A stretch of DNA of 44,616 nt from Caldimonas mangrovi (GTDB taxonomy: Bacteria; Pseudomonadota; Gammaproteobacteria; Burkholderiales; Burkholderiaceae_C): assembly GCF_023721835.1 (NCBI RefSeq), contig NZ_JAMKFE010000025.1, positions 1 to 44,616 on the forward strand. Reading direction: 5' to 3'. The notes beneath the pieces were generated by a model. It ran no database searches and was not told where the DNA came from. It was given only the letters and a program-made list of their open reading frames with translations. Of this stretch, positions 4,014 to 7,888 are shown piece after piece. Position 1 is the first letter of the stretch; the number at the start of each line of letters is the position of its first letter. Position numbers and translations under genes: made by a program.

Positions 4014-5498
4014 TCAGAAGCCTTCTTCCACCAGTTCGGCGGCACGCAGCAGCGCCCGTGCCTTGGCTTCGGTTTCCTTCCATTCGAGTTCGGGCACCGA
4101 GTCGGCCACCACGCCGGCCGCCGCCTGCACGTACAAGGTGTTGTCCTTGACGATGCCGGTGCGGATGGCGATGGCAACATCCATGTCGCCGGCGTAGCTG
4201 AGGTAGCCGCAGGCGCCGCCGTAGATGCCGCGCTTGACCGGTTCCATCTCGTCGATGATCTCCATCGCGCGGATCTTCGGCGCGCCGGTCAGCGTGCCGG
4301 CCGGGAAGCTGGCACGCAGCACGTCGAGGTTGGTCATGCCGTCCTTCAGGATGCCTTCGACATTGCTGACGATGTGCATCACGTGCGAGTAGCGCTCGGT
4401 GACGAAAGCCTCGGTCACCTTCACGCTGCCGGTCTTGGCGATGCGGCCGATGTCGTTGCGCGCCAGGTCGATCAGCATCACGTGCTCGGCGCGCTCCTTC
4501 GGGTCGGCGAGCAGTTCTTCTTCGAGCGCCTTGTCCTGCTCGGGCGTGGCGCCACGCGGGCGCGTGCCCGCGATCGGGCGGATCACGACCTTTTCCCCTT
4601 CGGGGCTGTGTTCGTGCCGCACCAGGATCTCGGGCGAGGCACCGACGATCTGGAAGTCGCCCATGTCGTAGAAATACATGTACGGCGACGGGTTCAGCGA
4701 GCGCAGTGCACGGTACAGACTGAGCGGCGACTCGGTGTAGCGCTTCTTCAGGCGCTGGCCGATCTGCACCTGCATCATGTCGCCGGCGGCGATGTATTCC
4801 TTGGCCCGCAGCACCGCGTCGAGGTAGTCGTCCTTCGCGAACTCGCGCTCGATCGCATGCGAGATGCCGCGCTTGACCGGCGGCGCGGTGACGCTGAACT
4901 TCAGCTTGTCGATCAACTCGGCCAGGCGGCGCTTGGCGCGGAAGTACGCCTCCGGCTCGCGCGGGTCGGCATAGACGATCAGGTAGAGACGCCCGGACAG
5001 GTTGTCGATGACCGCGAGTTCCTCGCACTGCAGCAACAGGATGTCGGGCGTGTCGATGCCGCCCTCCTTGTGCACCTTGGCGAGCTTGGGCTCGATGTAG
5101 CGCACGGTGTCGTAGCCGAAGTAGCCGGCCAGCCCGCCGCAAAAGCGCGGCATGCCGGGACGCAGCGCCACCTTGAAGCGCTTCTGGTAGTCGGCGATGA
5201 AGTCGAGCGGGTTGCCTTCGTGCGTTTCGACGACCTGGTCGTCGGTGACCACTTCGGTGGTCCAGCCGTGGGTGCGCAGCAGCGTGCGCGCCGGCAGGCC
5301 GATGAACGAGTAGCGGCCGAAGCGCTCGCCGCCGACGACGGATTCGAGCAGGAAGCTGTATTTGCTGCGCCCGGTGGCGTAGGCCAGCTTCAGGTACAGC
5401 GACAGCGGGGTTTCGAGGTCGGCGAAGGCCTCGGAGATGAGGGGAATGCGGTTGTAGCCCTGCTGGGACAGGCTCTTGAATTCGAGTTCGGTGATCAC
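4014..5498 (-). CDS. trpE: Anthranilate synthase component I
   Basis: A 494-residue enzyme that makes anthranilate from chorismate with ammonia from TrpG. The chorismate-binding core is visible: [43 protein letters not shown] and YGGACGYL in the C-terminal half. The N-terminal [18 protein letters not shown] belongs to the Trp feedback-binding region. I place the start at a GTG (5498) because a GGAGG sits 9 bases upstream and the protein then begins (V/M)[19 protein letters not shown], the usual betaproteobacterial TrpE start; the in-frame ATG at 5555 has no such support. The preceding leader suggests attenuation control. Confidence 0.95.
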
Positions 5499-5571
5499 GC
5501 GGTGGGCCCTCCAAGCCCGGCGGCGCCCGCGCTCGATGGCGGGGCTCCGCGGCAATGGGAAATTGTCGAGG

Positions 5572-5650
5572 GGAATCGTGGGATTCCGGGCGTGCCGGTG
5601 GGGCGCATGGGGTGCTCAGAAGAACGAGGCACCGCTCACGGCCGGCGGCA
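5572..5650 (-). promoter_or_regulatory. Possible trp attenuator hairpins between trpL and trpE
   Basis: Read on the reverse strand, the trpL-trpE gap holds several alternative stems: TGCCGC (5650-5645) with GCGGTG (5635-5630, G-T pairs included), followed by U-rich TCGTTCTTCT; GGTGC plus TC (5633-5626, one bulge) with GAGCACC (5617-5611); and GGAATC/GATTCC (5587-5582/5577-5572) with loop CCAC. The first two share bases 5633-5630 and are mutually exclusive, as in an attenuator. Which one terminates is not clear, and no classical long U-run is present. Confidence 0.4.
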
Positions 5651-5652
5651 AA

Positions 5653-5733
5653 TCAAACCAGTGCGTGCGGGCGACGCCAGGGCCAGGCTCCCCGGTCGTT
5701 CGAACCTTTGGTTTGTTTGCGCGAAATGAACAT
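5653..5733 (-). CDS. trpL: trp operon leader peptide (Trp-Pro-Trp)
   Basis: A 26-codon frame upstream of trpE, opening ATG-TTC-ATT and closing TGA, with TGG-CCC-TGG at codons 17-19 and a basic tail. Tandem Trp codons in a short peptide before trpE are the hallmark of ribosome-mediated attenuation: low charged tRNA-Trp stalls the ribosome and prevents termination. No Shine-Dalgarno sequence precedes the ATG. A possible -10 (TACACT, 5747-5742) would start transcription about two bases before the ATG, so the message may be leaderless, as known for rhizobial trpL. Role and start are inference; the codons are seen directly. Confidence 0.75.
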   Translation of the reverse strand: MFISRKQTKGSNDRGAWPWRRPHALV

Positions 5734-5916
5734 GGAGGCGGAGTGTAGCAGCGCCTTGTGGCCGGCCGGAACGGGCGGCCCCTGTCGCGACGGTGACACC
5801 TTGTCGCGGCCGGTCCAAAAATTTTCCGAACGTTCGTGCGTTTTCCCGATGGACAAGCGAGCCCGCAAGCCCAACACTGACCGGCTTGTCAAAACATGTA
5901 ACAGGAGCAAACCGCC

Positions 5917-6519
5917 ATGTTCCGACCCTGGTTCTCTGCTTTGGCCATTGCCCTGATCGGTCTCGGCGCAGCACACGCGCAGGCGACCGAGGTCGCCGGC
6001 GTCAAATTCGATCAGCAGATCCAATTGAACGGCGCGCCGCTGCAGCTCAACGGCGCCGGCGTGCGCTACAAGGCGATCTTCAAGGTGTACGCCGCGGGCC
6101 TGTACCTGACCCGGAAGGCCGCCACGCCCGAGGCGGTGATGGCTGCGACCGGCCCGCGCCGGCTGAACATCGTGATGCTGCGCGACATCGATGCCAATGA
6201 GCTCGGCAAGCTGTTCACCCGCGGCATGGAGCAGAACGCGTCGCGCGAGGACTTCGTCAAGTCCATCCCCGGCACGATCAAGATGGGCGAGATCTTCGCC
6301 GCGAAGAAGAAGCTGGCAAGCGGCGAGTCGTTCCAGGTCGACTGGGTGCCGGGCCAGGGCACCTACATCCTGGTCAACGGCAAGCCGATGGCCGAGCCGA
6401 TCAAGGAGCCCGAGTTCTACACGTCGCTGATCAAGATCTGGCTGGGCCACCACCCGGCCGATGCGACGCTGAAGGACGCGTTGCTGGGCAAGGAAAAGGA
6501 CCGGGCCGCGAATTCTTGA
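5917..6519 (+). CDS. Exported chalcone-isomerase-like protein
   Basis: A 200-residue protein with a Sec signal peptide (cleavage likely after ...AAHAQA, about residue 23). The body resembles the bacterial chalcone isomerase-like family: GVKFDQQIQLNG, YKAIFKVYAAGLYL and the C-terminal SLIKIWLGHHPADATLKDALLG. Bacterial members are periplasmic and their function is not settled; true chalcone isomerisation is unlikely. A good AGGAG precedes the ATG. It sits on the opposite strand between gph and the trp operon and converges on gph with a 20-base gap. Confidence 0.85.
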   Translation: MFRPWFSALAIALIGLGAAHAQATEVAGVKFDQQIQLNGAPLQLNGAGVRYKAIFKVYAAGLYLTRKAATPEAVMAATGPRRLNIVMLRDIDANELGKLFTRGMEQNASREDFVKSIPGTIKMGEIFAAKKKLASGESFQVDWVPGQGTYILVNGKPMAEPIKEPEFYTSLIKIWLGHHPADATLKDALLGKEKDRAANS

Positions 6520-6539: not shown

Positions 6540-7211
6540 CTAGAACGCAGGTTCCAGTTCGTCGAGCCGGTCGACGAACCCGTCGGCCGGCGCGCTGCGC
6601 ACCGGCTCGCCGTGGTTGTAGCCGTAGGTCACCAGCACGACCGGGCAGCCGGCGGCACGCGCCGCCATGGCATCGTTGATGGAGTCTCCGATCATCAGCG
6701 TGCGCGCCGGTTCGGTGCCCAGCGCCTCGCAGGTCTTCAGCAGCGGCAACGGGTCGGGCTTCTTGCGTTCGAAGGCGTCGCCGCCGAAGGCCCGCCGGAA
6801 GTAGGCGGCCAGGCCCTTGCGTTCCAGCAGCGGCAGCGCGAAAGCGGTCGGCTTGTTGGTCAGGCAGGCCAGCGGCAGGCCCAGCGCCGCCAGCCGCCGC
6901 AGCCCCTCGATGACGCCGGGAAATACCGCGGCATGCTCGCCGTTGATCGCCAGGTAGTGATGCTGGTAATGCGCCCATGCGTCTTCGTAGAGCCGGTGCA
7001 CGCCTTCGGCGTCCTGGGTGCGCGCCAGCGTCTGGCGGATCAGGTGCTCGGAGCCCTTGCCCACGGTGCGCGCGACGAAGGCATGGTCGATGGGCGGCAG
7101 CGCGAGATCGCCCAGCATGCGGTTGAGGGCGACGACGAAGTCGCCGGCGGTATCGACCATCGTCCCGTCGAGGTCGACGATCACCCCCTGCAGGCCCGCG
7201 GGAAGCTTCAT
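6540..7211 (-). CDS. gph: Phosphoglycolate phosphatase (HAD family)
   Basis: A 223-residue HAD hydrolase that dephosphorylates 2-phosphoglycolate. HAD motif I is [12 protein letters not shown] near residue 12 (nucleophile Asp and acid/base Asp), motif II LTNKP near 112, the motif III lysine in KKPDPLPL near 150, and motif [14 protein letters not shown] near 176. The start MKLPAGLQG overlaps the rpe stop by four bases (ATGA). An rpe-gph-trpE order is common in proteobacteria; here the plus-strand chalcone-isomerase-like gene is inserted before trpE. Confidence 0.93.
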
Positions 7212-7888
7212 GCCGCCAGTTGCCCGCGCATCGCGTCGATGACGCCCTTGTAGTCGGGCTTGCCGAAGATGGCGCTGCCGGCGACGAAGGTGTCGGCACC
7301 GGCATCGGCGACCTGGCGGATGTTGTCGACCTTGATGCCGCCGTCCACTTCGAGGCGGATGTCGCGCCCGCTGGCGTCGATGATCTTGCGCACCTGCTCG
7401 ATCTTCTTCAGCGCGGCGGGGATGAAGCTCTGGCCGCCGAAACCGGGGTTGACGCTCATGATCAGCACCAGGTCGACCTTGTCGATCACCCATTCCAGCA
7501 CGTCGATCGGACTGGCCGGGTTGAACACCAGGCCGGCCCGGCAGCCTTCTGCCTTGATCAGTTGCAGCGTGCGGTCGACGTGGGTGCTGGCGTCGGGGTG
7601 GAAGCTGACCAGGTCGGCGCCGGCCTTCGCGAAGGCCTGGGCGAGCGCATCGACCGGCTGCACCATCAGGTGCACGTCGATCGGCACGGGCGTGCCGTCG
7701 GGTTGGCGGGCATGCGGACGCAGCGCTTCGCAGATCATCGGGCCGAACGTCAGGTTGGGAACGTAATGGTTGTCCATCACGTCGAAATGAATCCAGTCGG
7801 CGCCCGCAGCGATCACGTTGCGGACTTCTTCGCCCAGGCGGGCGAAGTCGGCGGAGAGGATGCTGGGGGCGATGCGGTAGGTCGTCAT
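7208..7888 (-). CDS. rpe: Ribulose-phosphate 3-epimerase
   Basis: A 226-residue TIM-barrel enzyme interconverting ribulose 5-phosphate and xylulose 5-phosphate. It has the conserved [16 protein letters not shown] start, [17 protein letters not shown] with metal-binding His and Asp, [20 protein letters not shown] and the phosphate-binding EVDGGI and AGSAIFG segments. I chose the ATG at 7888 (MTTYRIAPS) rather than the longer frame because that is where family similarity begins. It is coupled to gph by a four-base overlap. Confidence 0.96.

Follow-up and report, generated by a model that had tools for sequence, protein, structure and literature searches.

In Escherichia coli, trpE is preceded by the leader trpL, a short open reading frame (ORF) in which two Trp codons lie close together, accompanied by RNA hairpins and an intrinsic terminator. 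In vitro work in the early 1980s reportedly found that the ribosome-binding site of this leader pairs with a distal leader segment, limiting leader-peptide synthesis. TnaC is a nascent peptide that arrests the ribosome in response to free Trp, and Rfam release 15 includes a Trp leader family. In rhizobia, a trpL leader ORF lies ahead of trpE, its RNA starts at the ATG and it is subject to transcription attenuation; according to the available text of PMC7298713, both the RNA (rnTrpL) and the peptide (peTrpL) have been shown to act in trans.

We analysed a 44,616-nucleotide stretch of DNA from Caldimonas mangrovi (contig NZ_JAMKFE010000025.1), hereafter the window. On its minus strand, a phosphoglycolate phosphatase gene, an extended -10 element, a leader ORF, trpE, trpG and trpD follow one another (Table 1). 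The leader ORF has 26 codons, with TGG-CCC-TGG at codons 17-19, and ends 154 nt before the trpE start. An initial annotation had claimed this frame with these Trp codons, its place ahead of trpE and a TACACT close to the ATG, and we recovered all three. The trpE product contains the Pfam domains Chorismate_bind and Anth_synt_I_N, and the nearest named TrpE among the matches listed (84.8% identity) is that of a Rubrivivax metagenome-assembled genome, which makes a Rubrivivax-like member of GTDB Burkholderiaceae probable as the source. Judging from the comparisons below, the element is likely to control trpEGD in cis as a tryptophan leader, or attenuator, and to occur in most of the searched genomes of the family. 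It is probably a variant trp attenuator, near-leaderless and with a hairpin in its coding region, and in several clades with a helix that joins the 5' end to the tail.

Table 1. Coordinates of the leader, its predicted RNA elements and the neighbouring genes in the window
Feature	Coordinates	Strand	Remarks
Phosphoglycolate phosphatase gene	7253..6540	-	NCBIfam TIGR01449
Chalcone-isomerase-like gene, between the phosphoglycolate phosphatase gene and the -10	5917..6519	+	Pfam PF16036
Extended -10, TGCTACACT	5742..5750	-	TG at 5750-5749, TACACT at 5747..5742; 8-nt gap to leader ATG
Leader ORF (trpL-like), encodes MFISRKQTKGSNDRGAWPWRRPHALV	5653..5733	-	TGA stop at 5655..5653
P0 5' arm, GCAAACAAACCA	5709..5720	-	Codons 5-9
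P1 hairpin (GGTT/GACC)	5694..5706	-	Arms 5706..5703 and 5697..5694
Conserved core, GACCGGGGAGCCTGGCCCTGGCG	5675..5697	-	Leader nt 37-59, codons 13-20
P2 hairpin, loop AGCCUGG	5677..5695	-	Arms 5695..5690 and 5682..5677
P0 3' arm, TGGTTTGATTTGC, one bulged A	5648..5660	-	Contains leader stop codon
Possible hairpin presenting the trpE Shine-Dalgarno (GGGCT-TGGAG-GGCCC)	5504..5518	-	Enrichment of such hairpins
trpE, anthranilate synthase component I, GTG start	4017..5498	-	TIGR00564, 541.6 bits

A Pfam search with the leader peptide gave nothing at E <= 0.01. No Rfam family matched the leader, either in the whole window at gathering thresholds or in 11 leader loci at E <= 1; the Rfam Trp leader family shares gene and amino acid with the window leader, and no Rfam model matches it. 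Our leaders resemble E. coli trpL in each of the features named above, with the intrinsic terminator in the Burkholderia clade. They differ in that window-type leaders have no Shine-Dalgarno and a -10 almost at the ATG, that their Trp codons are split by Pro, Leu or Ser and lie inside a hairpin, and that early codons in the Burkholderia clade pair with the terminator U-tract; the pairing described for the E. coli ribosome-binding site resembles this last arrangement. With rhizobial trpL they share a leader ORF ahead of trpE; a 5' end at or close to the ATG and transcription attenuation, both features of the rhizobial leader, are predicted for window-type leaders. Compared by eye, the three rhizobial peptides in PMC7298713 (peTrpL and two relatives) contain WWW or WW in place of W-P/L/S-W and share no core with DRGAWPWR. 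The rhizobial parallel that had been drawn for this locus therefore holds for the kind of element and stops short of kinship. A search of full-text literature, limited to main texts and to few subscription papers, found no described betaproteobacterial trpE leader, and an earlier description may exist elsewhere. A large betaproteobacterial family thereby gains a trp leader that has no Rfam match and was not found described in that search, in a form ready for use as a covariance-model family.

Distribution, start and frame of the leader

A 172-nt DNA query matched 41 of 100 genomes (the window's own counted), all 41 from the window's family, and none of the 40 among them that belong to other families of the order. 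A covariance model built from 30 leaders (R1) matched 233 of 299 family genomes and 112 of 141 genera at E <= 0.001, with 25 of the 30 training genomes included in those 299. Among 274 class-wide genomes it gave seven matches at E <= 0.01, three of them in the window's family (own included); the other four, outside the family and weak (five loci, L065-L069), were rejected, having no trpE and a sequence that is not leader-like. Sixty-six family genomes gave no R1 match. We examined 20 of these and found trpE in 16, with at least 300 nt upstream in 14, and 11 of the 14 had a divergent W-x-W leader. Three family members with enough upstream sequence (L314-L316) have no leader ahead of trpE. One of them, L315, in which the leader ORF is absent as in L314, retains a TTTGCTACACT promoter, so its leader looks deleted.

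At 171 distinct trpE loci, which were fetched by leader hits before the exact-core scan and so are no unbiased sample, TGGCCNTGG lay within 600 nt upstream in 160. Ten of the remaining 11 had W-L-W or W-S-W. In the other one (L122), the second Trp codon is replaced by Cys (TGGCCCTGT) and the rest of the core is intact. An exact 21-nt core pattern was present at at least 119 loci in named genomes. Among the matches listed, trpE lay 115-415 nt downstream in 113 of 119, and the other six had less than 700 nt of sequence on the trpE side; the genera listed include Rubrivivax, Acidovorax, Variovorax, Comamonas, Polaromonas, Hydrogenophaga, Roseateles, Burkholderia, Paraburkholderia, Caballeronia and Trinickia. 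By these searches, the leader is common to most of the searched genomes of one family, which is probably Burkholderiaceae in the GTDB sense.

Counts below come largely from sets of 180 and 281 leaders. Their selection pattern requires GGN-GCN-TGG, then a pyrimidine (C or T) at positions 1 and 2 of codon 18, then TGG, and it sets the middle base of codon 20; invariance at those bases and in the P2 pairs 41-55, 43-53 and 44-52 is therefore partly by construction. The pattern derived from an earlier open W..W search, and a recount of 173 leaders did without it. Exact-pattern loci L188-L306 are excluded from the 180-leader set. Dropped from the sets were six loci without the pattern (L122, L307, L314-L317), the 30 that belong to other families (L323-L352) and any locus with a TrpE match starting beyond residue 40. 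The recount began with 185 distinct loci, of which 173 had a -10, an ATG and an ORF containing W-x-W. Left outside were 12: the loci L122 and L316, and ten others in which no such ORF was seen, L314 and L315 among them; in the remaining eight of those ten the leader is present, with a -10 or ATG off pattern.

We found a -10-like hexamer in 174 of 180 leaders (TACACT in 142, with a TG extension in 156). In 171 of the 180 the ATG followed it at a distance of 6-10 nt, compared with 17.7 in shuffled upstream sequence. Among the 179 leaders with an in-frame ATG, a Shine-Dalgarno core preceded the leader ATG in one and trpE in 106. Since the usual distance from a -10 to the start site is well established, the positions of the leader -10 predict a message that starts 0-4 nt before the ATG. 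The leaderless start first suggested for the window is thus probable, with good if indirect support, in the form of a leaderless or nearly leaderless message. Leaderless messages have been described in Burkholderia cenocepacia (PMC4603805) and Cupriavidus metallidurans (PMC7563307), whose genera belong to the window's family; in the available main texts of these two papers, the trp terms searched for are absent.

Next to the promoter, the reading frame itself was informative. We took the hexamer TA[ACG]A[CA]T and an ATG 4-12 nt later, picked regardless of frame, which could be done for 172 of 180 leaders. In 172 of 172, this ATG was in frame with the Trp codons, across 11 different ATG-to-Trp distances (42-72 nt) and with no stop between. 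Judged by frame conservation alone, the leader ORF, about 20-30 codons long, is translated, and its two Trp codons lie almost side by side, clustered ahead of a trp gene. Comparison of related genomes had been proposed for the window; it showed that Trp codons and frame are conserved, and the R1 matches across the family together with the frame test place the leader far from chance.

The conserved core and the predicted leader helices

Leader nt 37-59 are almost invariant in the 180-leader set, partly owing to selection by pattern. This core, conserved down to its wobble bases, was absent from the initial annotation. In the pattern-free recount, codon 15 was GGA in 165 of 173 leaders, GGG in seven and GAG in one, and never GGC or GGT; GGA makes up 1.8% of Gly codons in trpE genes. 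Codon 14 was CGG in 160 (11.7% of Arg codons in trpE genes) and the middle codon, 18, was CCC in 151 (37% of Pro codons in trpE genes). The other middle codons were CCT (8), CTT (8), TCT (3), TCC (1), CTG (1) and TTG (1), which makes the residue Leu in ten leaders and Ser in four. Codon 20, outside the P2 hairpin, varied freely, with CGT in 90, CGC in 54, CGG in 16 and CGA in 13.

The core conservation to the wobble base is accounted for by P2, a hairpin in the coding sequence that pairs leader nt 39-44 with 52-57: the frozen wobbles lie inside the stem and the freer ones in the loop or outside. In the window, the Trp17 codon is in the loop and the Trp19 codon in the 3' arm. Pairs 40-44/52-56 were all standard in 176 of 180 leaders (partly by construction), Arg-to-Gln leaders retained pair 41-55 as A-U, and three leaders had A42-U54 in place of G-C. 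Twelve of the 14 Leu or Ser middle codons consist of pyrimidines only, so pairing of this codon with the G-rich 5' arm stays possible, mostly as G-U. We conclude from these patterns that P2 is built around the Trp codons within the ORF. They also bear on the idea that DRGAWPWR arrests the ribosome on free Trp in the manner of TnaC. The residues around the Trp codons are conserved too, as such a peptide would require, but the conservation is largely at the nucleotide level, with P2-stem wobbles nearly frozen and the codon-20 wobble free, and Pro18 can be replaced by Leu or Ser and Asp13 by Gly, Ser or Tyr. We therefore regard nascent-peptide sensing as very unlikely.

A second hairpin, P1, pairs leader nt 28-31 with 37-40 and overlaps P2. 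Leaders with unusual 3' arms showed Watson-Crick compensation in 6 of 12, versus 0.8 expected (0 of 1,000 shuffles), and those with any non-GACC arm in 16 of 42, versus 8.0 (3 of 1,000 shuffles). In the commonest, GACC type, P1 was found in 90 of 138 leaders compared with 90.1 expected, which is no covariation beyond chance. If G-U pairs were counted as well, the 42 leaders of other types gave 23 full helices, fewer than the 30.4 obtained with upstream sequence borrowed from the GAC type. Lacking covariation in the commonest type and any gain with G-U, P1 is the weakest of the three helices. The whole window leader folded with no extra stability over shuffled sequence (z -0.99; first 144 nt, z -0.17).

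The third helix, P0, also absent from the initial annotation, pairs the first codons of the leader with its tail. In the window and its clade the 5' arm GCAAACAAACCA pairs with UGGUUUGAUUUGC, and the window duplex has a z of -5.1, with 0 of 100 shuffles as low. Given 25 Acidovorax/Comamonas-like leaders (alignment A2, 25 of 29 picked leaders, with L030, L161, L172 and L182 left out), RNAalifold paired GUUCAUUC (nt 3-10) unprompted with GAAUGAAC ahead of trpE; changes in this P0 were one-sided only. Pairing with the GAAUGAAC motif would explain why GAATGA is enriched downstream (42 of 180 leaders versus 4.5). For the window's clade, alignment A3 brings together 12 leaders chosen by eye; they come from three peptide groups with P0, of which L289, L145, L019, L175 and L187 were left out, so that its counts favour P0. 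Pair 18-82 was changed on both sides in two of these leaders and pair 21-78 in two; 64 of 500 shuffles reached two such pairs and none of 500 reached four cells, and slid versions of P0 scored worse. Compensated P0 helices were also seen in the divergent leaders L096, L130 (11 bp), L139 and L321.

In the 24 leaders of the Burkholderia clade (alignment A4; all of them exact-pattern loci among the matches listed, 16 distinct), codon 4 covaries at its third position with the base that follows U6: among the matches listed, AAT occurred with A in 15 of 15 and AAC with G in 9 of 9. Rows L197 and L290, with the tail one base misaligned, were counted as unpaired there. All of these P0 covariation counts are of sequences and not of independent events. 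Across clades, P0 was in the best 5% in 42 of 275 leaders, versus 15 expected, and beat all 20 shuffles in 41 of 271, versus 13 expected; by peptide group, it was in the best 5% in none of 16 MFVH, 10 MFTS and 7 MFTA leaders. Taken together, the pairings indicate that P0 joins the first codons to the tail in several clades, the window's included.

Strong nucleotide conservation and the helices P0-P2 would also fit a structured RNA that binds a ligand or protein, with the ORF incidental. Against this, 172 of 172 ATGs are in frame over 11 lengths with no stops, and the promoter is positioned at the ATG, which makes this reading extremely unlikely. For P2, candidate roles in CsrA binding, at a pause site or in ribosome entry were also considered.

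Termination and models of control

In the Burkholderia clade, comprising Burkholderia-, Paraburkholderia-, Caballeronia- and Trinickia-type leaders, the U-tract of an intrinsic terminator serves as the P0 3' arm (GCUGAAGC...GCUUCAGC, CCGUUUUUU). Terminator stem and U-tract were present in 24 of 24 leaders (16 distinct) among the matches listed, with a pattern written after inspection of those 24 sequences. The window gave one weak terminator match, compared with 0.7 expected, and 49 of 180 leaders had U-tract terminators, no excess over the 40-60 in shuffles. The window has P0, P1 and P2 but no clear terminator and no demonstrated antiterminator, so the mutually exclusive stems claimed for it in the initial annotation were not confirmed. 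Ribosome-mediated attenuation, the mechanism proposed along with them, is indicated by the Trp codons, the position of the leader and the Burkholderia terminator; for the window itself it is plausible.

Because there is no excess of U-tract terminators over the 180 leaders, Rho or weak sites need considering. Rho could end leader transcription in clades like the window's, with a stalled ribosome hiding a rut site that would be exposed after the ribosome's departure. The lack of a clear U-tract terminator in the window and of an excess across leaders favours this; the Burkholderia clade, on the other hand, has a U-tract terminator, and we hold the Rho reading to be possible, if doubtful.

We also considered control of trpE translation, in which the core or a local arm would sequester the trpE Shine-Dalgarno and a stalled ribosome would free it. 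Complements of the core were enriched downstream (AGGCTC, 29 versus 6.2; AGGGCC, 30 versus 10; 180 leaders), and 27 of 29 and 25 of 30 occurrences, respectively, lay within 30 nt of the trpE start. Hairpins presenting the Shine-Dalgarno were enriched as well (73 of 200 leaders with a Shine-Dalgarno-like site; shuffled mean 44.8, maximum 57). However, a stalled-ribosome mask on the core left Shine-Dalgarno accessibility at 0.42 versus 0.41 (178 leaders), the letters beside the Shine-Dalgarno also pair with the local arm, L012-L014 have AAGGTTTGA-like Shine-Dalgarno sequences without a core complement, and the Burkholderia clade has a plain terminator. This kind of control is thus unlikely. Core-to-Shine-Dalgarno pairing as a general switch was rejected, being enriched but confounded by the local hairpin and absent in some clades, as was sequestration lifted by a stalled ribosome, for which folding shows no effect. 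At 5504-5518 of the window and in relatives, CTC or GCC often follows the trpE Shine-Dalgarno (GGAGGCTC, GGAGGGCC); these letters complement the leader core as well as the local arm.

Under the attenuator that we favour, the first base of the message would coincide with the leader ATG or lie no more than about 4 nt from it, and a 70S ribosome would initiate at this 5' end. When charged tRNA-Trp is scarce, the ribosome would stall at codons 17-19 and melt P1 and P2; it would also open P0, either because further ribosomes queue up upstream or because the leader is held open, and with all three melted RNA polymerase would transcribe trpE. Under ample Trp, the ribosome would depart, P2 and P0 would close and transcription would stop before trpE; in Burkholderia this would happen at the U-tract terminator, in the window's clade perhaps at a weak site or through Rho. 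As soon as the tail has been transcribed, P0 would close the 5' end, shutting the finished leader RNA to further translation, and could aid termination or sense 5'-end occupancy. This would be an attenuator apparently read from a leaderless or near-leaderless message, with a regulatory hairpin embedded in its ORF and a tail to which the first codons pair. If the leaders are leaderless, the relatives would offer natural material for testing how RNA polymerase is coupled to 70S initiation at a 5'-terminal AUG.

Several observations sit uneasily with this model. Terminators show no excess over shuffled sequence, P0 is missing from some clades, P1 has no covariation in its commonest type and three family members have no leader. 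Ribosome-mask folding of Burkholderia-clade leaders gave terminator pairing of 0.92 for the free leader, 0.81 with the mask at Trp17, 0.95 at Trp19, 0.59 at Trp22 and 0.96 at the stop, so that a mask at Trp19 leaves it unchanged. A different reading of P0 is that it senses the ribosome queue, with 5'-end occupancy deciding in place of a classical 2:3 antiterminator. With a leaderless message, the first codons would be free whenever no ribosome is there, and would then pair with the tail (the U-tract in Burkholderia, GAAUGAAC in the Acidovorax-like clade), which would favour termination and bar new ribosomes from the leader. Only with a stall at Trp17 or Trp19 would the next ribosome wait over codons 1-6 and block P0, so that trpE is transcribed; the usual 45-nt ribosome spacing should accommodate this second ribosome. 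We give the queue sensor a low probability.

Besides any role in cis, the terminated leader RNA or the peptide might have trans-acting functions like those in rhizobia. In the Burkholderia clade, termination should release a leader RNA of about 120-150 nt, P0 would close and perhaps stabilise it, and the leader peptide is well conserved, but RNA pairing accounts for a good part of that conservation; a trans role seems rather improbable to us.

Beyond the single leader ahead of trpE, a few loci stood out. L160 (G103:C77, about 1060-850, minus strand) has a second leader copy directly upstream of trpG (TIGR00566), with no trpE at the locus. With completeness at 90% and contamination at 4% for this genome, the copy may come from a different organism. 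In other families of the order (L328-L352), a short W-R-W ORF lay near trpE in 11 of 30 trpE loci, often with the DNA TGGCGATGG, and these ORFs probably represent another Trp leader type. L323, from family f8, has a related leader (MFLDKKHSV...EAWLWRRW) with ACAAAAAAC inside the ORF and GTTTTTTGT downstream, which is a P0-to-U-tract arrangement outside the window's family.
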